Origin: Burkholderia sp. BCC0322
GTDB lineage: Bacteria > Pseudomonadota > Gammaproteobacteria > Burkholderiales > Burkholderiaceae
DNA length: 64,000 bases
Reading direction: 5' to 3'
NCBI RefSeq assembly: GCF_902833045.1
Contig: NZ_CADFDU010000003.1
Coordinates: forward strand, 434,001-498,000
A program made the position numbers and the translations under genes. This document shows positions 54,317-62,442 of this stretch, piece by piece (position 1 is the stretch's first letter; each line of letters begins with the position of its first letter). Under the pieces are notes generated by a model. The model did not search any database. It had not been told where the DNA came from and saw only the letters and a program-made list of their open reading frames with translations.

Positions 54317-54499
54317 TGATTGTCTCCATGCGAATGTCAAAGTCGCATCGAGACTAAAGAAGCCGCGCGTGTCGGTATTGAAGAAAACTGCCCTCGGCGT
54401 CGCTGTCGGGATTCACGTGACGCTGAACCGGTCGCCGCGCGCACCGGCGACCGAAAGTCGTTGGAAGCACCGTTGCAGCCGCAGTCGTCGAGTCTCACG

Positions 54500-55762
54500 T
54501 CACGGACGGGCGGGAGTCGCGAGCGCGTCGAACACGTCGGCTTCCGGAAACTGCAGCCACGACGCCGGGCCTGCATCGATTTCTTCGACCGTCAGCAGAC
54601 ATGCATCGAGTTCGCGACGCAACCGGACGTGATCGATCGACTGCCCGATGAACACGATCTCCTGCCGGCAATCGCCGGTCGGCTCCTCCCACTTTTTCAG
54701 CACGCCGTCGCGACGATAGTCGTCGTGCGGCCAGTCCGATCGAGGAACGAATCGCCACCATCGCCCGACGTAACCCCACTGGAACGCGCCGCCCGTTTGC
54801 ACGAGCATGGCGATGTCGGCATACCGGTGCGCAGCCCAGGCATATCCCTTGCAGCGAAGCAGCCGGCCGTTGGCCCAGGGGCGACGCAGCCACGCGAGCA
54901 GGCGCGCCGGATGAAACGGCGCACGTTCGTGATAAGTCCACGATGCGATCCCGTACGCGTCCGATTCCGAGGGGCGTTCGTCGGCCTGCATGCGTTGCAT
55001 CCATCCCGGCGATTCGACGAGCGCCGGGAGATCGAAACGCCGCGTATCGAGGACGTCTGACGGATCGATCTCGCCGTGCCGCATCGGCAGGATTCGCGCG
55101 GACGGATTCAGCGATGCAAGGAGGGCGCGCAGCCGGTCGAAACCTGCGTCGCCGATCCGGTCGAGTCGGCTCACGAGGATCACGTTCGCGTATTCGACTT
55201 GTTCGATCAGCAGGTCCGACAGCTTGCGCGGCGGACCGGAATCGCTGCCGCTCGCGAGCGTGGCGTCGTGCGTGACCGGTTCAGCCGACGCGATCATGTC
55301 CTCGAACGTCTCGCCGTTGACCACCGTGACGAGCGTGTCCAGCCGCGCGAGTTCGCTGAGGCTGAAACCGTCGCGGTCGAGGAACGCGAACGTCTCCGCA
55401 ACCGGCATCGGCTCCGAGATACCGGTCGACTCGATCAGCAGATAGTCGAAGCAACGCTGCCGCGCGAGCGTGCTGATCTGCTCGAGCAGATCGGCGCGCA
55501 GCGTGCAGCAGATGCAGCCGTTGCTCATTTCGACGAGTTCGTCCTCGCCTCGACGCAGCTCGACGTTGCGCCGCACGTCGTCGGCATCGACGTTCACTTC
55601 GCTCATGTCGTTGACGATCACGGCAACCTTCAGGCCGGCGCGGTTGCGCAGGATGTGGTTCAGCAACGTCGTCTTCCCGGCGCCGAGGAAGCCGGACAGC
55701 ACGGTGACCGGAATCCTCGGCGGCGCGGCGGCCGCCGCTTGTCGATGCTCCGGCGTCGTCAT
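54500..55762 (-). CDS. CobW-family GTPase, nitrile hydratase activator / metal chaperone
   Basis: A 420-residue COG0523 protein. P-loop GFLGAGKTT at 24-32, the metal-binding motif C83-x-C85-C86 (NGCICCTL) and a C-terminal CobW_C domain with '[26 protein letters not shown]' at about 288-313. Iron-type nitrile hydratases need such an activator (p44k/P47K) with a CxCC motif to load iron into the alpha subunit. Its ATG overlaps the nthB stop, so it is made with the enzyme. Last gene of the leftward trio. Confidence 0.88.
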
Positions 55763-56412
55763 GCGCTCTGCCCGGACGCGCGATCCAGGTAGCCTTCGAA
55801 CAGGTCGACCACAACGTAACCGTCGTCGGCGGCGGCGCCCCACAGATCCTTCACGCGGAACTCGACATGATAGGTCGGCTGATGCGCGGCTCCGGTGTCG
55901 CCGTGGCCGATCGCGTCCGGGAAGGGCCACGATTCGGTCGTCCGGTGCAGCACGATGCCTTCCTTGCCGCGAACGTAGCCCGGCGCGCGGATGTGTCCGC
56001 TGACGTATTCGTCGCGAACGACGATGCGATCGCCGACCTCGAACCGCGTCGAGTCGGGCGGTGCCGCCCGGCCGCCGGATTTCGGCGGGTTTGCGAGCCG
56101 GAAATGCGAACCGAGCGCGCGGTCGAGCTCGTCCTGCGTGAGCACGCCGGTTTCGACGAGCAAGGTGGCCGTCGCGATCACGTAGCGCTCGTAGTAGCGC
56201 GTGCCGACGTGCTGGCGCACGTCGATGCGTTCGACTGCGTGACGTACCTCGTCGACGCTGAATTTTTTCAGTGGGTCCACGCCGACGAACATCAGGCTGT
56301 ACGCGAGATGCTCCCAGTCTTCCTTGAAGACCGGCTTGTAGCCGAGACTGTTGATCGTGTGCGGCACCGGGCCGAAACCCTGGAATCCGCCGAGGTCGTG
56401 AAAGCCGTCCAT
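55759..56412 (-). CDS. nthB: Nitrile hydratase beta subunit
   Basis: A 217-residue beta subunit beginning [16 protein letters not shown], the standard start. The N-terminal arm wraps the alpha subunit, and the C-terminal SH3-like barrel includes '[32 protein letters not shown]' (in parts, residues 123-154) with the conserved Arg contacting the metal cluster, then '[12 protein letters not shown]'. It pairs with NthA to hydrate nitriles to amides. It lies 43 nt after nthA; its stop overlaps the activator start. Confidence 0.93.
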
Positions 56413-56455
56413 ATGTGACTCCGAGATGAAGGTCGAAAGCGAAACGTGGTGCGAG

Positions 56456-57055
56456 TCAGTGCACGCGCGGCAGCGCCACGCCGATCAGCACGTCCTTCGT
56501 GACGAGCGTGCGCAGTTGTTCCTCGGTCATGTGCTCACTGCCGGCCGGCCGCACCGGCAGCACGAGATAGCGGCTTTCGGCGGTCGTATCCCAGACCTTC
56601 ACGACGACGTCGTCGGGCAGGTCGGTGCCGAGTTCGCGCAGCACCGTGCGCCCTTCGCGGACGAGTCGCGCACGATATTCGAAGCCCTTGTACCACTCGG
56701 GCGGCAGCCCGAGCACCGGCCAGTTCGTGCATGAGCACAGGCTGCAGACGATCACGTTCTTCAGCGTCGGCGTGTCTTCGAGCGCGACGATGTATTCGCC
56801 CTGCGGCCCGGTGTGGCCGAACTGCGCGCACGCGGCCGTGCCGTCCTTCAGCAGCAGTTCGCGAAACGCCGGGTCGACCCACGCGCGCGCGACGATGCGT
56901 GCGCCGTTGGCCGGATCCCAGGTCGTGGACATCAGCTCGGTCAGGCCTTCGATATAGCCGTCGGGGATCAGGTTCTTCTCTTTCATCACGCGAAACAGCG
57001 CCCAGGCACGTTCGCCGGGCGTCGAGGCTGTTTCCGCGGAAGGGATCGCGCTCAT
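56456..57055 (-). CDS. nthA: Nitrile hydratase alpha subunit, iron-type
   Basis: A 199-residue alpha subunit. The metal-binding claw is V-C104-S-L-C107-S-C109-T; Ser at position 105 is the mark of iron-type enzymes (cobalt enzymes have Thr). C107 and C109 are the cysteines oxidised to sulfinic/sulfenic acids in known enzymes. 'AFRELLLKDGTAACAQFG' and 'WPVLGLPPEWYK' are also typical. It is the first gene of the leftward nthA-nthB-activator operon, divergent from the oxd branch. Confidence 0.94.
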   Translation of the reverse strand: MSAIPSAETASTPGERAWALFRVMKEKNLIPDGYIEGLTELMSTTWDPANGARIVARAWVDPAFRELLLKDGTAACAQFGHTGPQGEYIVALEDTPTLKNVIVCSLCSCTNWPVLGLPPEWYKGFEYRARLVREGRTVLRELGTDLPDDVVVKVWDTTAESRYLVLPVRPAGSEHMTEEQLRTLVTKDVLIGVALPRVH

Positions 57056-57569
57056 CGTGGGGTTCCTTGTGGTGGTTCGGGTCGACCGCCGCCATCGCGT
57101 TGGTACTGCCGTGGCGGGGCGGGGAAGCGTGGTGTCGGTCACGCTCGACGAGCAGGGTAAGAAGAGAAAAAGCGCGGTTCTTTGCCGGCACGGATCGGAA
57201 ACTATGCTGAGACGGCCCCGTGGCGCGGCAGGGGCCGACGCGCAACGGAGGCCCGGCGATTCGTGGCATCGACAGGGCGCCCGGCACGCAACGGCGGCCG
57301 CCGGTGCACGTTGTGCGACCGCCGTATGGCACGGGTCGCGGAGGTCCGCCACAGCCAATTTCTTGTTCCGCCGGAAAACAGAAATGCGGATTTTGCCTTT
57401 CTATTCTCACCCTCAAGCGACGGCCGTTCGATGTCGCGAATCGCCGGTACTCCCGCAGTAACGGCGGAACAACAGTCAGCCAACACCCCGCGATTCCACC
57501 GTCCGGCAACGATTTCCGTTCGTCGTACGTCGAGCGTGGCGGTGTCTGCGCATCCAGGTGAGGAGCATG
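57056..57569. other. Divergent regulatory region of the aldoxime/nitrile locus (514 bp)
   Basis: No credible gene. It separates leftward nthA from the rightward channel-oxd-amidase genes, so both promoters should lie here. An AT-richer stretch at 57350-57410 with TTGTTC at about 57363 and TTGCCG...TATGCT at 57182-57208 (15-bp spacing) are possible promoter elements. Imperfect GCGGATTTTGCC-like repeats might bind the AraC regulator encoded at the far end. Confidence 0.45.
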
Positions 57570-58463
57570 ATGGGCAACGTCAACAGAATGAAACTGAAGC
57601 GATTCGCGCGCTGGATCGGCTTGTCGCTGATGGCCGTCGCATCGCATTACGCGGGCGCGGTCGAGGTCGATCCCGGCGATTACGAGCAGTATCCGGCCGG
57701 CGCGACGATCGGCGTGCTGTACTACAACTACTCCGCGACGAACGCCTACTACGCGAACGGCCACCGGACGTCGGATTTCGACCTGCAGTCCAATATCGGC
57801 ATCGCCCGCCTGCTGCATGTGTTCCAGCTCACCGACAGGCTCACGATCGATCCGCAGGTGTTGCTGCCGTTCGGTCACGTCAGCAGCTTCGGCAACGCCG
57901 GTGCGCTTGGCAGTACGAATGGTGTCGGCGACGTGATCCTGACCGCACCGTTGAAATTCCGCCTGAACGACGCGAAGGACGTCGTCGCCGCGACGATCTA
58001 CGTCTACGCGCCGACAGGGAGCTACGACCAGAACCGCGGTCTCAATCTCGGCGCCAACCGCTGGTCGCTCGATTTCCAGGCGGCCTACATCAAGCACTTT
58101 TCGCCGCAGTGGGCGCTCGATCTCGTCGGCGACGCGATCTGGTACGGCAACAACACGTCGTACGGCGCGAGCGGCACGACGCTGCATCAGCGGATGAGCT
58201 ACAGCGCACAGGCGATGGTGCGTTACATGCCCGATCCGGGCACGTCGCTCGGGATCGGCATCACGCAGCTCTGGGGCGGTGAAACGAGCGTGGACGGCGC
58301 GGACAACAACGACGCGCTTCGCACGACGCACATGCGGATCACCGCGGCGAAATTCGTGACGCAGTCCGATCAGGTGCAAATCCAGCTCGGCACCGATCTG
58401 AGCGTGCGCAACGGCCCGAAGAACAGTCTGCTCGCCGGCCTGCGTTACGCACACATCTTCTGA
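57570..58463 (+). CDS. Outer-membrane channel, phenol meta-pathway (MetA_deg) family
   Basis: A 297-residue exported protein. The leader MGNVNRMKLKRFARW plus a hydrophobic stretch ends AGA (cut before VEVDPGDYE). The body is aromatic-rich, alternating beta strands with 'YAPTGSYDQNRGLNLGANRWSLDFQ' (about 146-170), the family signature, and ends AHIF. Such proteins are thought to carry aromatic or nitrile substrates across the outer membrane. ATG 57570 has AGGAG five nt ahead; ATG 57567 and GTG 57558 also exist. First gene of the rightward branch. Confidence 0.82.
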   Translation: MGNVNRMKLKRFARWIGLSLMAVASHYAGAVEVDPGDYEQYPAGATIGVLYYNYSATNAYYANGHRTSDFDLQSNIGIARLLHVFQLTDRLTIDPQVLLPFGHVSSFGNAGALGSTNGVGDVILTAPLKFRLNDAKDVVAATIYVYAPTGSYDQNRGLNLGANRWSLDFQAAYIKHFSPQWALDLVGDAIWYGNNTSYGASGTTLHQRMSYSAQAMVRYMPDPGTSLGIGITQLWGGETSVDGADNNDALRTTHMRITAAKFVTQSDQVQIQLGTDLSVRNGPKNSLLAGLRYAHIF

Positions 58464-58558
58464 CGACCCGCGTGCGCCGGGATACGCCCGGTGCATCTCG
58501 CTCCGTGTCCCCAACGTCGATACCTCGACATCCGATTCCCTTTCCAGAGAGGTCACGC

Positions 58559-59611
58559 ATGGAATCCGCCATCGACAAACACCTGATCTGCCCGCGGACG
58601 CTGTCGCGCCGCGTCGCCGACGATTACCAGCCACCGTTCCCGATGTATGTCGCCCGGGCCGCCGAAGACCTGAGCCAGGTCGTGATGGGCTATTTCGGCG
58701 TGCAGTATCGCGGCGCCGACAAGCGCGCCACGGCGCTGGCCGCGTTGCGCCGGATCGTCGCCGATTTCGGTGCGCAGGACGGCCCGAACAACTTCGATCT
58801 GACACAACACACCGACGACCAAGGCTACGAGAACCTGATCGCCGTCGGCTACTGGCGCGATCCGGCCGCGTATGCGCGCTGGATTGCGTTGCCGGCACTC
58901 GCCGACTGGTGGGCCTCCGACGCGCGTCTCGCGGACGGGATCGGCTACTTCCGGGAAATCGTCGCGCCGCGCGCCGAGCAGTTCGAGACGCTCTACGCAT
59001 TCACGAGCGATTTCCCCGGCGTCGGCGCGATCATGGACGGCGTCAGCGGCGAGATCGAGGAGCACGGCTACTGGGGATCGATGCGCGACCGGTTCCCGAT
59101 CTCGCAGACGGACTGGATGCGCGCGGACGGCGAGTTGCGCGTCGTCGAGGGCGATCCGGCCCGTGGCGGCCGCGTGGTCGTACTGGCACACGACAACATC
59201 GCGCTGATTCGCTCCGGCCAGGACTGGCGCGCGGCCGAGCGCGACGAGCGCCGACTGTATCTCGAGGAGATCGAGCCGACGCTGCGCAGCGGGATGGAAT
59301 TTCTGCGCGACAACGGCGCGGACGTCGGCTGCTACAGCAATCGCTACGTGCGCTCGATCGATCTCGACGGCAACGTGCTCGACGAGAGCTACAACATCGG
59401 CCACTGGCGCTCGCTCGACCGCCTCGAGCGCTGGGCCGAATCCCATCCGACGCACCTGCGGATCTTCGTCACGTTCTTCCGCGTCGTGACCGGGCTGTCG
59501 AAACTGCGGCTGTATCACGAGGTGTCCGTCTTCGACGCCAAGCATCAGGTTTACGAATACGTGAACTGCCATCCGCGCACCGGACTGATGCGCGACGCCG
59601 TCACCCGCTGA
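58559..59611 (+). CDS. oxd: Aldoxime dehydratase (haem)
   Basis: A 350-residue haem b enzyme that dehydrates aldoximes to nitriles. All residues known for this family fall at the canonical numbers: R178 and S219 in the active site, the proximal haem ligand H299 (HPTHLRIF) and catalytic H320 (RLYHEV). Also seen: 'GYFGVQYRG' near 44 and 'DNGADVGCYSNRYVR' near 251. CCAGAGAGG precedes ATG. It supplies the nitrile for NthAB and lies 95 nt after the channel gene and 46 nt before the amidase gene. Confidence 0.94.
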   Translation: MESAIDKHLICPRTLSRRVADDYQPPFPMYVARAAEDLSQVVMGYFGVQYRGADKRATALAALRRIVADFGAQDGPNNFDLTQHTDDQGYENLIAVGYWRDPAAYARWIALPALADWWASDARLADGIGYFREIVAPRAEQFETLYAFTSDFPGVGAIMDGVSGEIEEHGYWGSMRDRFPISQTDWMRADGELRVVEGDPARGGRVVVLAHDNIALIRSGQDWRAAERDERRLYLEEIEPTLRSGMEFLRDNGADVGCYSNRYVRSIDLDGNVLDESYNIGHWRSLDRLERWAESHPTHLRIFVTFFRVVTGLSKLRLYHEVSVFDAKHQVYEYVNCHPRTGLMRDAVTR

Positions 59612-59657
59612 ATCCCGCCGGCGCCGGCGGCGCCGCTTACCGAACTGGAGAACGTCG

Positions 59658-61184
59658 ATGGCCATCAAACGCCCGACTCGCGAACAACTGTCCGACATTG
59701 CAGCCGGTTTCGGCTTTCATGTCGATTCCCGCCAACTCGCCGAATACGACGATGCCCTGCAGGCGAACTTCGATGCGTACGACGCCATCGACGCGCTGCC
59801 CGACTATCTGCCAATCGTCGCGTATCCGCGCACGCCCGGCTACCGCCCGGAAGGCGACGAGAACCGTTACGGCGCGTGGGCGCGCAAGAGCACGATCCAC
59901 GGTGCCGCGGAGGGCAAGCTGCGCGGCAAGACGGTGGTCGTGAAAGACAACATCTGCGTTGCCGGCGTGCCGATGCGCAACGGCGCGAGCACGTTCGAGG
60001 GCTACGTGCCCGACGTCGATGCGACCGTCGTCACCCGGGTGCTCGACGCAGGCGGCACGATCGCCGGCAAGTCGACCTGCGAGTACTACTGCTTTTCCGG
60101 CGGCTCGCACACGAGCGCGTCGGGGCCGGTGCACAATCCGCGCAAGGCAGGGCACTCGTCCGGCGGCTCGTCGTCAGGCAGCGGCGCGCTGGTCGCGAGC
60201 GGCGAGGTCGACATGGCGCTCGGCGGCGACCAGGGCGGCTCGGTCAGGATCCCGTCCGCCTATTGCGGCATCTACGGGATGAAGCCGACGCACGGGCTCG
60301 TGCCGTACACCGGCGCGATGCCGATCGAGGCAACCGTCGATCATCTGGGGCCGATGACGAGCAACGTGCTCGACAACGCGCTGCTGCTCGATGTCATCGC
60401 GGGCGACGACGGACTCGATCCGCGCCAACGGGCGTTGCCGCCGCGCGCCGATTATCTCGGCGCGATCCGCGACGGCATCGCGGGACTGCGGATCGGCATC
60501 CTGCGCGAGGCGTTCGGGCTCGCGAATGCGGAGCAAGTGGTCGACGAGGCGGTGCTGGCCGCCACGCACCGGTTGCGCAAGCTGGGCGCGAGCGTCGACG
60601 AAGTGTCGGTGCCGCTGCATGCCGCCGGCACCGCGATCTGGCTGCCGATTGCGGCCGAGGGAGCGACGCAGCAGATGATGAAGGGCAACAGCCACGGTTT
60701 CAACTGGGGCGGCCTGTACGTGACCGGCATGATCGATCATCACGCGGGCTGGCGCGAGCGGGCCGATGAGTTGCCGGATACCGTGAAGGTGACGATGCTG
60801 CTCGGCGAATATTTCACGAGCCGGTATCGCGGGCGCTACTACGCGAAGTGCCAGAACCTCGCGCGGCGCTTGCGATCGGCTTACGACGCGGCGCTGCAGT
60901 CGTATGACGTATTGGTGATGCCGACCGTACCGATGCGCGCGTCGAAGCTGCCGGAGCCCGGTTGTGCGATGTCCGAGTCGCTGACGAGGGCGTTCGAGAT
61001 GCTCGCGAATACCGCGCCGTTCGACGTGTCCGGGCATCCGGCGATGTCGCTGCCGTGCGGGGTAGCCGACGACCTGCCGATCGGGCTGCAACTGGTCGGG
61101 CGCCGTTTCGACGAGGCGACGCTATATCGCGTTGCGTATGCGTATGAACAGTCTTCCGACTGGCGTCGGACGACATGCTCATGA
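59658..61184 (+). CDS. Amidase of the amidase-signature family
   Basis: A 508-residue amidase completing the path from amide to carboxylate plus ammonia. The Ser-cisSer-Lys triad is K96 (VVVKDN), S171 (within GHSSGGSSSG) and S195 (GGDQGGSVR), at the same numbers as in nitrile-hydratase-linked rhodococcal amidases. N-terminal 'EQLSDIAAGFGFHVDSRQLAEY' is typical of that subgroup. CTGGAG lies about 7 nt before ATG. It is encoded directly after oxd. Confidence 0.92.
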   Translation: MAIKRPTREQLSDIAAGFGFHVDSRQLAEYDDALQANFDAYDAIDALPDYLPIVAYPRTPGYRPEGDENRYGAWARKSTIHGAAEGKLRGKTVVVKDNICVAGVPMRNGASTFEGYVPDVDATVVTRVLDAGGTIAGKSTCEYYCFSGGSHTSASGPVHNPRKAGHSSGGSSSGSGALVASGEVDMALGGDQGGSVRIPSAYCGIYGMKPTHGLVPYTGAMPIEATVDHLGPMTSNVLDNALLLDVIAGDDGLDPRQRALPPRADYLGAIRDGIAGLRIGILREAFGLANAEQVVDEAVLAATHRLRKLGASVDEVSVPLHAAGTAIWLPIAAEGATQQMMKGNSHGFNWGGLYVTGMIDHHAGWRERADELPDTVKVTMLLGEYFTSRYRGRYYAKCQNLARRLRSAYDAALQSYDVLVMPTVPMRASKLPEPGCAMSESLTRAFEMLANTAPFDVSGHPAMSLPCGVADDLPIGLQLVGRRFDEATLYRVAYAYEQSSDWRRTTCS

Positions 61185-61313
61185 CGTGCCCGGCGCGGTA
61201 GCGCGTCGCCGCTGCGCCGCGTGTCGGTCCGACCGGCCACGCGGCGGACGCGGCCATCGATTGGACAATGCGCTTTTGAACGGGCACGCTACCGGCTGCG
61301 TGTTTGCTAACCC

Positions 61314-62369
61314 ATGTGGGGCACGACCATGACGATGCGTCCTTTCCCGCGCGCCGCAAGCGGCGACGCGACCGGTCTGGCGTCCGACAGCCCGCTGGAC
61401 GAACGGACGAACGCGGCCATCGAGGTGCCGCCCGACGGCTCGGTCAGCCAGCGTATCGAATTCTGGCGCGAGACGATTCTGCGCCTGTTCGCGGACGTGC
61501 AGATCGCGGCCGTGCAGAAAGCCGATTTCTTCGGTCGAGTGCGGCAGCGCAAGTGCGAAAAGATGCGAATCTCCGAAATCCACGCGAGCGAGCAGGCCGT
61601 GATTCGGCGTTATCGCCAGGCGCGCAGCGAGTATGAGGACAAGTATTTCGGAGTATTGATGCTCGAGGGCAGCCAGTCGGTCGAGCAGGACGGCAAGATC
61701 GTCACGCTGCACCCCGGGGATTTTGCGATCTACGACGCGACACGGCCTCACCACCTGCAGTTCGGCCAGTCGTGGCGCGAGATCGTCGTGAGCATTCCCC
61801 GCGCGACGCTGAACCAGCTCGTCATCGGGATGGAGCACCGCACGGCGTGCCCGACGCAAACCGGGGAGGGCGTCGGCAGCGTCATGCGTGCGTTTCTCGA
61901 GCAGATGTCGTCGCAGATCCGTAGCGTGACCGAGGACGAGATGCGTCAGTTGTCGGATACCGCGATCACGCTGATCGCGATGACGCTGGGGGGCATGCAG
62001 CGCAACGACCTCGCGCAATCGAGGATGAAGGCGTTGACGCTGACGCGTGTGAAGCGGCATGTGCTCGAGCACCTGCACGATCCGGAGCTGAACCCGATGA
62101 TGATCGAACGGTCGATCGGGATTTCGTCGCGGTACATCAACAAGCTCTTCGAGGCCGAGGAGACGTCGCTGATGCGTTACGTATGGAACCTGCGACTCGA
62201 ACGGTGCGCGCAGGATCTCGCGAATCCGCAATGCGTGGCGCTGCGCGTGTCCGACGTCGCATTGCGCTGGGGATTCAACGACATGTCGCATTTCAGCCGC
62301 GTGTTTCGCGAGCGGTTTGCGATGTCGCCGCGGGCGTGGCGCGAGCAGGGTGGCAAGCCACGCGCGTAA
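61314..62369 (+). CDS. AraC-family activator of the aldoxime/nitrile locus
   Basis: A 351-residue regulator with an N-terminal AraC-binding-like domain ('VSQRIEFWRETILRLFADVQ', then 'VEQDGKIVTLHPGDFAIYDATRPHHLQF') as in FeaR/NitR/OxdR, and a C-terminal HTH pair ('PMMIERSIGISSRYINKLFEAEETSLMRYV' and 'VSDVALRWGFNDMSHFSRVFRERF'). Regulators of this group activate nitrile or aldoxime genes on sensing the substrate. Start at ATG 61314 or 61329. Its position after the amidase makes it the obvious regulator. Confidence 0.87.
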   Translation: MWGTTMTMRPFPRAASGDATGLASDSPLDERTNAAIEVPPDGSVSQRIEFWRETILRLFADVQIAAVQKADFFGRVRQRKCEKMRISEIHASEQAVIRRYRQARSEYEDKYFGVLMLEGSQSVEQDGKIVTLHPGDFAIYDATRPHHLQFGQSWREIVVSIPRATLNQLVIGMEHRTACPTQTGEGVGSVMRAFLEQMSSQIRSVTEDEMRQLSDTAITLIAMTLGGMQRNDLAQSRMKALTLTRVKRHVLEHLHDPELNPMMIERSIGISSRYINKLFEAEETSLMRYVWNLRLERCAQDLANPQCVALRVSDVALRWGFNDMSHFSRVFRERFAMSPRAWREQGGKPRA

Positions 62370-62442
62370 TGCGTCCCGGGCCGCGTTCGAGGCTGGCAAG
62401 CGCCGATCGGAGGCGGCCGGACGTCGACAGGCGCGGCCGCCG

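Follow-up and report, generated by a model that had tools for sequence, protein, structure and literature searches.

A probable mobile aldoxime–nitrile cassette of Burkholderia with two divergent arms, a paired promoter-like element and an Oxd-linked outer-membrane channel

The 64,000-nucleotide stretch of Burkholderia sp. BCC0322 analyzed here (contig NZ_CADFDU010000003.1, positions 434,001–498,000; hereafter, the window) contains seven genes that an earlier note on its sequence described as a complete, transferable aldoxime–nitrile–amide locus split into two divergent arms. The locus raises the question of what pathway it encodes, how it came to its present place and how two arms that face away from each other would be controlled. 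Our answer, which we consider very likely, is that of a mobile catabolic cassette that combines channel-mediated import, aldoxime dehydratase (Oxd), iron-type nitrile hydratase (NHase) and amidase in two AraC-driven arms, originated once in this layout and then spread as a block. Aldoximes, such as plant-type ones, would enter through the outer-membrane channel and be dehydrated by Oxd to nitriles; the NHase, matured by a CobW-type GTPase, would convert nitriles to amides, and the amidase would split these into acid and ammonia. The pathway is a known one in a Burkholderia-type, mobile, two-promoter layout, and the analysis extends it to mobile Burkholderia cassettes; Burkholderia is missing from the distribution table (Table 3) of the 2022 pathway review, a table for which a single remote Oxd served as the query (PMC8955678). 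New here are a branch of Oxd-linked channels that contains the solved protein 4RL8, paired 52-bp elements and an exchangeable NHase part.

Every one of the seven genes is a single intact open frame (Table 1). The left arm starts at 57055 and runs leftward through NHase alpha and NHase beta to an activator, the start of which shares 4 bases with the end of nhB; the right arm reads, from 57558, channel, Oxd, amidase and AraC regulator. Both frames and family scores thus agree with the gene content and the two divergent arms described earlier. The dehydratase aligns without gaps over residues 1–349 with 3w08, and the match to 3a15 also spans 1–349; this full-length similarity to solved OxdA/OxdRE, together with an equivalog score above cut-off, assigns it to the OxdA type. 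It keeps R178, S219, H299, and H320, of which we take H299 to be the proximal residue and the other three to be distal. The NHase has alpha and beta subunits, the motif CSLCSC and a CobW/P47K activator, as expected for the iron type (we take CSLCSC as the iron-type and CTLCSC as the cobalt-type motif). The amidase scores above its subfamily cut-off and carries K96, S171, and S195, presumably the Lys-Ser-Ser triad, with roles taken from 3A1K, which identifies it as a pathway amidase. The PF13557 match and homology to 4RL8 place the channel in the COG4313 family. The best NCBIfam model for the activator (NF038288/ZigA) gives 498 bits, under the cut-off of 600, and the regulator reaches 183 bits against the FeaR equivalog NF007243, under the cut-off of 199; hence, these two proteins were filed only as relatives of ZigA and FeaR, and the regulator is not counted as a FeaR. 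FeaR acts in aromatic amine catabolism. With Oxd, NHase, and amidase all within the locus, it matches the aldoxime–nitrile pathway cluster as defined in the consulted part of the review (Oxd, NHase and amidase, or nitrilase, clustered together; PMC8955678), and the enzyme families and key residues bear out the claim that it is complete.

Table 1. Features of the locus, in window coordinates.
Feature	Position	Strand	Evidence
Whole inserted cassette, ~8.03 kb	54400..62430	.	Homology breaks versus empty sites
Activator-type CobW/P47K GTPase, CICC motif	54500-55762	-	PF02492 161.5 bits, PF07683 71.4 bits
NHase beta	55759-56412	-	TIGR03888 230.5 bits (cut-off 152.2); PDB 2ahj_B 280 bits
NHase alpha, motif CSLCSC	56456-57055	-	TIGR01323 284.6 bits (cut-off 249.9); PDB 2ahj_A 286 bits
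Element L, promoter/operator-like 52-mer, -10-like TACCCT, facing the NHase arm	57152..57203	-	Second-best matrix site
Element R, promoter/operator-like 52-mer, -10-like TATTCT, facing the channel-Oxd-amidase-AraC arm	57358..57409	+	Conservation
COG4313/PF13557 outer-membrane channel	57558-58463	+	PF13557 119.7 bits (cut-off 22); PDB 4RL8 366 bits
Aldoxime dehydratase Oxd, OxdA type, haem	58559-59611	+	NF050090 677 bits (cut-off 600); PDB 3w08 606 bits
Amidase-signature amidase	59658-61184	+	NF005565 859 bits (cut-off 545); PDB 3a1k 481 bits
AraC-family regulator, FeaR-like ligand domain	61314-62369	+	PF14525 (AraC_binding_2) 70.3 bits (cut-off 27), PF12833

A profile search of 65 Burkholderia genomes with PF13816 (the haem-dehydratase domain) gave matches above cut-off in 13 genomes. 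Twelve of these carry an orthologous cassette; the match in G051, which is 33% identical and sits in a different context, was excluded. The window's divergent layout is found in 11 of the 12, the twelfth (G055, strain BCC0506) being collinear. Further divergent copies are present in one Paraburkholderia (L046/L058) and in B. cenocepacia CMCC(B)23006 (L015), the total of divergent copies being 14, window included. All 14 form one group both in the oxd tree (Shimodaira–Hasegawa-like approximate likelihood-ratio support, SH-aLRT, 90) and in the NHase tree (94/99), and hence the divergent layout probably arose once. The synteny comparison proposed in the earlier note thus shows the layout to be usual in the genus. 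To its question of whether the layout is standard and already characterized, the answer is divided: it is standard in Burkholderia, but our literature search found no characterization of it.

Wider comparisons used the best 80 of 254 confirmed Oxd-relative loci (62 from Pseudomonadota and 18 from Actinomycetota, with L071 placed under Rhodococcus), gene presence being judged within the fetched stretches. The cluster of Pseudomonas chlororaphis B23 and Pseudomonas sp. K-9 (OxdA/OxdK, Fe-NHase, amidase, P47K) has the same enzymes and activator as the window. The channel is likewise present in the locus of P. chlororaphis 14D6 (L065), and the Oxd encoded there shares 74% identity with that of the window. 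The divergent layout differs from that of the Pseudomonas loci: in L065 and most others the order oxd-channel-amidase-NHase-activator runs in one direction (as read from 14D6, not from B23 or K-9 themselves), and the regulator is divergent and only 22–28% identical to the window's AraC, or 50–54% in a few loci. Thus, the expectation of one-directional Pseudomonas loci holds except for the regulator, while that for Rhodococcus holds for the enzyme genes of two of three loci, the amidase being reversed in one. The rhodococcal systems of R. erythropolis N-771 and R. globerulus A-4 are represented among the nearest solved relatives by Oxd 3a15, Fe-NHase 2ahj, and amidase 3a1k, all of which we take to come from rhodococci; Rhodococcus-type clusters differ in having other gene orders and, in 18 Actinomycetota loci, no channel. 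The closest operons are collinear and devoid of element L. Pandoraea terrae LMG 30175 (L060) has all seven genes (73–87% identical) and element R, with NHase and activator between amidase and AraC. Burkholderia sp. BCC0506 (L059) and Paraburkholderia lacunae (L061) share channel, Oxd, amidase, and AraC (72–86% identical) and differ by a cobalt-type CTLCSC motif, with no CobW activator found.

The cassette is flanked by a gene for a LysE-family exporter on one side and one for a heavy-metal-type sensor kinase on the other. The empty spot was studied in 20 genomes, fetched from the 48 in which the LysE gene is present at ≥85% and the cassette is missing from this place. In all 20, the two flanking genes are directly adjacent, and BLAST homology with the window ends at 54397–54403 and restarts at 62424–62439; in the closest cases, the two ends of the empty site meet to within some 2 bases. 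Seven of these genomes have an orthologous cassette elsewhere (6 divergent, 1 collinear). The window's site is occupied by 6 of the 14 divergent copies, window included, and in the eight copies at other sites the similarity to the window spans only the region from approximately the activator stop to the AraC stop. Since pairwise comparison of corresponding flanks, among these eight sites and with the window's, revealed no similarity (4-kb flanks, matches of ≥300 bases), there are nine occupied sites; one further weak flank match, of 351 bases at 69% between L035 and L043, joins non-corresponding places.

The trees agree with movement. In the cassette tree (7,062 columns, 13 copies) the six window-site copies and that of G031, whose cassette lies at another site, form a group with 100/100 support in which G031 is nested, and forcing the six together is disfavored (approximately unbiased test, AU, p 0.0145). 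In the flank tree (four genes, 16 genomes) occupied genomes are scattered among empty ones, a single clade of them having an AU p of 7e-8. Clean insertion, nine sites, and conflicting cassette and flank trees give good support to the suggestion of a transferable module, which seems to have passed from strain to strain as a whole. Hallmarks of a transposon or integrative element (recombinase, terminal repeats or target duplication, tRNA target) were not found: profile scans of the seven cassette genes, flanking genes not being searched, detected no recombinase; none of the 25 longest of 39 inverted repeats joins the cassette ends, repeats under 14 bases not being sought; and a scan of eleven loci, ten with the cassette and one with the empty site, detected no tRNA. 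No empty counterpart of the G031 site was found, each of its flanks matching 9 of the 65 genomes and only G031 being common to both. The simplest reading is that the cassette spread as one block via recombination in the flanks, and it would have done so without an integrase of its own.

Two stretches are conserved in the divergent intergenic region. Element R is kept in the 14 divergent and 3 collinear copies. A 52-column matrix for which R sites alone served as training set (11 in all, collinear relatives contributing 3) recovered element L as the second-best site after R in 14/14 divergent loci, with scores of 10 to 26, any other site in these loci scoring −4 or lower; the second site is absent from all three collinear relatives. 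The consensus of L scores 42.5 against that of R, which was reached by none of 1000 mononucleotide shuffles (best, 35.5). Most likely, the AraC protein activates both arms via these two outward-facing operator/promoter copies and, as araC is the last gene of the right arm, it would also activate its own gene. Beyond the training genera the evidence for R-like sites is weaker. A rank-based count was too loose, with an R-like site among the top three in 9 of 30 loci without detected AraC, and hence a score threshold was adopted. This threshold was set once the rank-based count had proved unable to discriminate. Of 6 loci with AraC 48–70% identical, 3 have an R-like site no more than 350 bp upstream of a pathway gene; among loci with AraC <48% identical or undetected, the figure is 1 of 91. 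In the latter set at least six Pseudomonas operons are counted twice, and related loci cannot be taken as independent. No motif came out of an initial regular-expression search, and sigma-70 and terminator scans gave no more predictions than shuffles. A long inverted repeat (57247-57279/57421-57453) was considered as an operator and rejected, its left arm being missing from several divergent copies. In B. seminalis (L037/L053) the cassette AraC gene matches in two separate pieces, and the regulator may therefore be broken in that strain.

The NHase part is exchangeable and comes in two forms, an iron-type NHase paired with the activator and a cobalt-type NHase that lacks it. A CobW activator goes with 40 of 41 iron-type NHases and with none of 35 cobalt-type ones in the 80 loci, four of which have no NHase in the stretch; motif type and activator agree in 75 of 76 alpha-bearing loci, the exception being an iron-type locus on an early-ending contig. 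On a quick oxd tree, NHase type switches at least six times on starred branches (nine by parsimony). In the sister operons, one and the same slot between amidase and AraC is filled by cobalt-type genes (L059, L061) or by iron-type genes with activator (L060). The cassette probably descends from such a collinear operon, through a change that placed the NHase part upstream and behind a promoter copy of its own. The case illustrates that an NHase part can be exchanged, or moved to a new position, with retention of a matching promoter.

The channel had been considered an uncommon companion of these enzymes. This view did not survive the comparison, as 57 of the 62 Pseudomonadota loci carry one (at least 5 of the 57 being remote, <40% identical), while none of the 18 Actinomycetota loci does. 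At E 1e-60, the channel occurs in exactly 12 of the 65 Burkholderia genomes, namely, those with the cassette; an order-wide search matched 1 of 300 genomes, G001 itself. The sole solved relative found, PDB 4RL8, is Pput2725 of P. putida F1, a protein described as of function unknown in the consulted part of a paper whose main text mentions neither "nitrile" nor "aldoxime" (PMC4493636). It is 83–85% identical to the nearest channels of Pseudomonas aldoxime operons, F1's own gene neighborhood lying outside this comparison. A search with the 4RL8 sequence, blind to Oxd, covered 298 genomes from the Pseudomonas genus to which L083 belongs; it yielded 19 channels 64–85% identical to 4RL8, and oxd adjoins all 19 (15 newly fetched loci plus L065, L068, L083, and L095). 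At 44–49% identity, where 20 loci covering 21 of 25 matches were fetched, oxd adjoins 11. In the channel tree (114 rows, 16 duplicates dropped), 4RL8 falls in a 59-row branch (support 95) whose other 58 rows are all Oxd-linked, three of them to a remote Oxd. Since most rows of this branch were collected by Oxd linkage, the Pseudomonas count of 19/19 is the fairer test. Of the 75 channel rows linked to a close Oxd, 20 fall outside the branch, and hence the link between channel and Oxd has been made more than once. Our literature search found no paper joining NHase with COG4313 or aldoxime dehydratase with an outer-membrane channel. These results suggest a candidate function for a structural orphan and delimit a recognizable channel branch; should aldoximes or nitriles indeed pass through the channel, whole-cell nitrile chemistry would also benefit from it.

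Two variants of the association were seen in Pseudomonas. L248 and L251 have a COG4313 channel approximately 5 kb from NHase genes, with alpha 49% identical to that of the window, and no Oxd in the fetched stretch, a hint that the cargo of that relative may be nitriles rather than aldoximes. Five other loci (L241, L242, L246, L253, L257) combine a remote Oxd (41–44%), a COG4313 channel, and AraC, with no other cassette genes detected in the stretch.

A less favored but still quite possible explanation is that the channel is a general pore for hydrophobic compounds that merely travels with the operon. Its link to aldoximes rests on genome context, other COG4313 proteins have been tied to the uptake of sphingosine or trichlorophenol in the consulted part of the 4RL8 paper (PMC4493636), and no oxd was seen at nine of the 20 more distant Pseudomonas loci, one of whose stretches starts at a contig end. 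Against such a pore speak the confinement of the channel, at E 1e-60, to the cassette-bearing Burkholderia genomes, the oxd gene next to every close Pseudomonas homologue of 4RL8, and a well-supported branch that holds only Oxd-linked channels besides 4RL8. The bolder combined proposal, namely, that the branch including Pput2725 consists of dedicated outer-membrane entry ports for aldoximes, nitriles or both, and that the cassette is a mobile regulon with two heads, its AraC-dependent promoter having been duplicated so that the exchangeable NHase part can be driven separately from the import-Oxd-amidase part, seems to us evenly poised between true and false. The earlier note also inferred substrates such as indole- or phenylacetaldoxime, and a dedicated pathway yielding indoleacetate or phenylacetate in plant contact is possible, although we regard it as improbable and nothing in the sequence favors it. 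In its favor, the regulator is FeaR-like, if under the model cut-off, and OxdRG, which prefers 3-phenylpropionaldoxime, takes phenylacetaldoxime and indole-3-acetaldoxime at 40 and 11% relative activity, according to the consulted part of the review (PMC8955678). Against it stands the 1% relative activity on indole-3-acetaldoxime given there for OxdK, which prefers isovaleraldoxime (PMC8955678). The Oxd of the window, moreover, scores as the equivalog named "aliphatic aldoxime dehydratase" (NF050090). All 12 of its inspected positions, which we take to be the catalytic and pocket ones, are the same as in the Pseudomonas and Rhodococcus enzymes, so that no aryl-specific change is seen and the inference lacks support. 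By the same part of the review, the P. chlororaphis NHase is active on n-alkyl nitriles and inactive on phenylacetonitrile, and its inactivity on isovaleronitrile also counts against one aliphatic substrate (PMC8955678).

Vertical inheritance with loss in most Burkholderia, the differing places being due to genome rearrangement without any transfer, seems very unlikely. Clean loss would likewise leave adjacent flanks, and the empty-site comparison alone is compatible with it; the spot is empty, however, in all 20 fetched genomes, including the seven with an orthologous cassette elsewhere, homology ends at gene ends at the eight other sites, and the cassette tree conflicts with the flank tree. 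Several points nevertheless weigh against the mobile, AraC-driven cassette that we prefer. Repeated loss at the occupied spot could account for part of the tree conflict. Half of the loci with remote AraC orthologues (3/6) have no R-like site above a threshold that was set post hoc, and the sigma-70 scan called neither L nor R a promoter. The grouping of Burkholderia with Pandoraea is weak in the NHase tree (66/90), so that a rearranged NHase arm is indistinguishable from a newly acquired one. Finally, genes, elements, and arrangement are known here from sequence alone, which does not fix the substrate.

Two minor observations concern other dehydratase genes. A second oxd fragment in G001 (L014, L268; at the ends of contig C2) was rejected as an extra copy, being an untrimmed circular-contig overlap of 10.4 kb at 99.95% identity. 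In another genus of the family, the haem-dehydratase domain lies in two pieces with the same profile split point in three loci (L025, L026, L027 of G123, G261, and G315); in L025 and L026 the two oxd-piece frames overlap and are preceded by a nitrilase-like frame, as judged by eye. This split may reflect a shared frameshift or something stranger.

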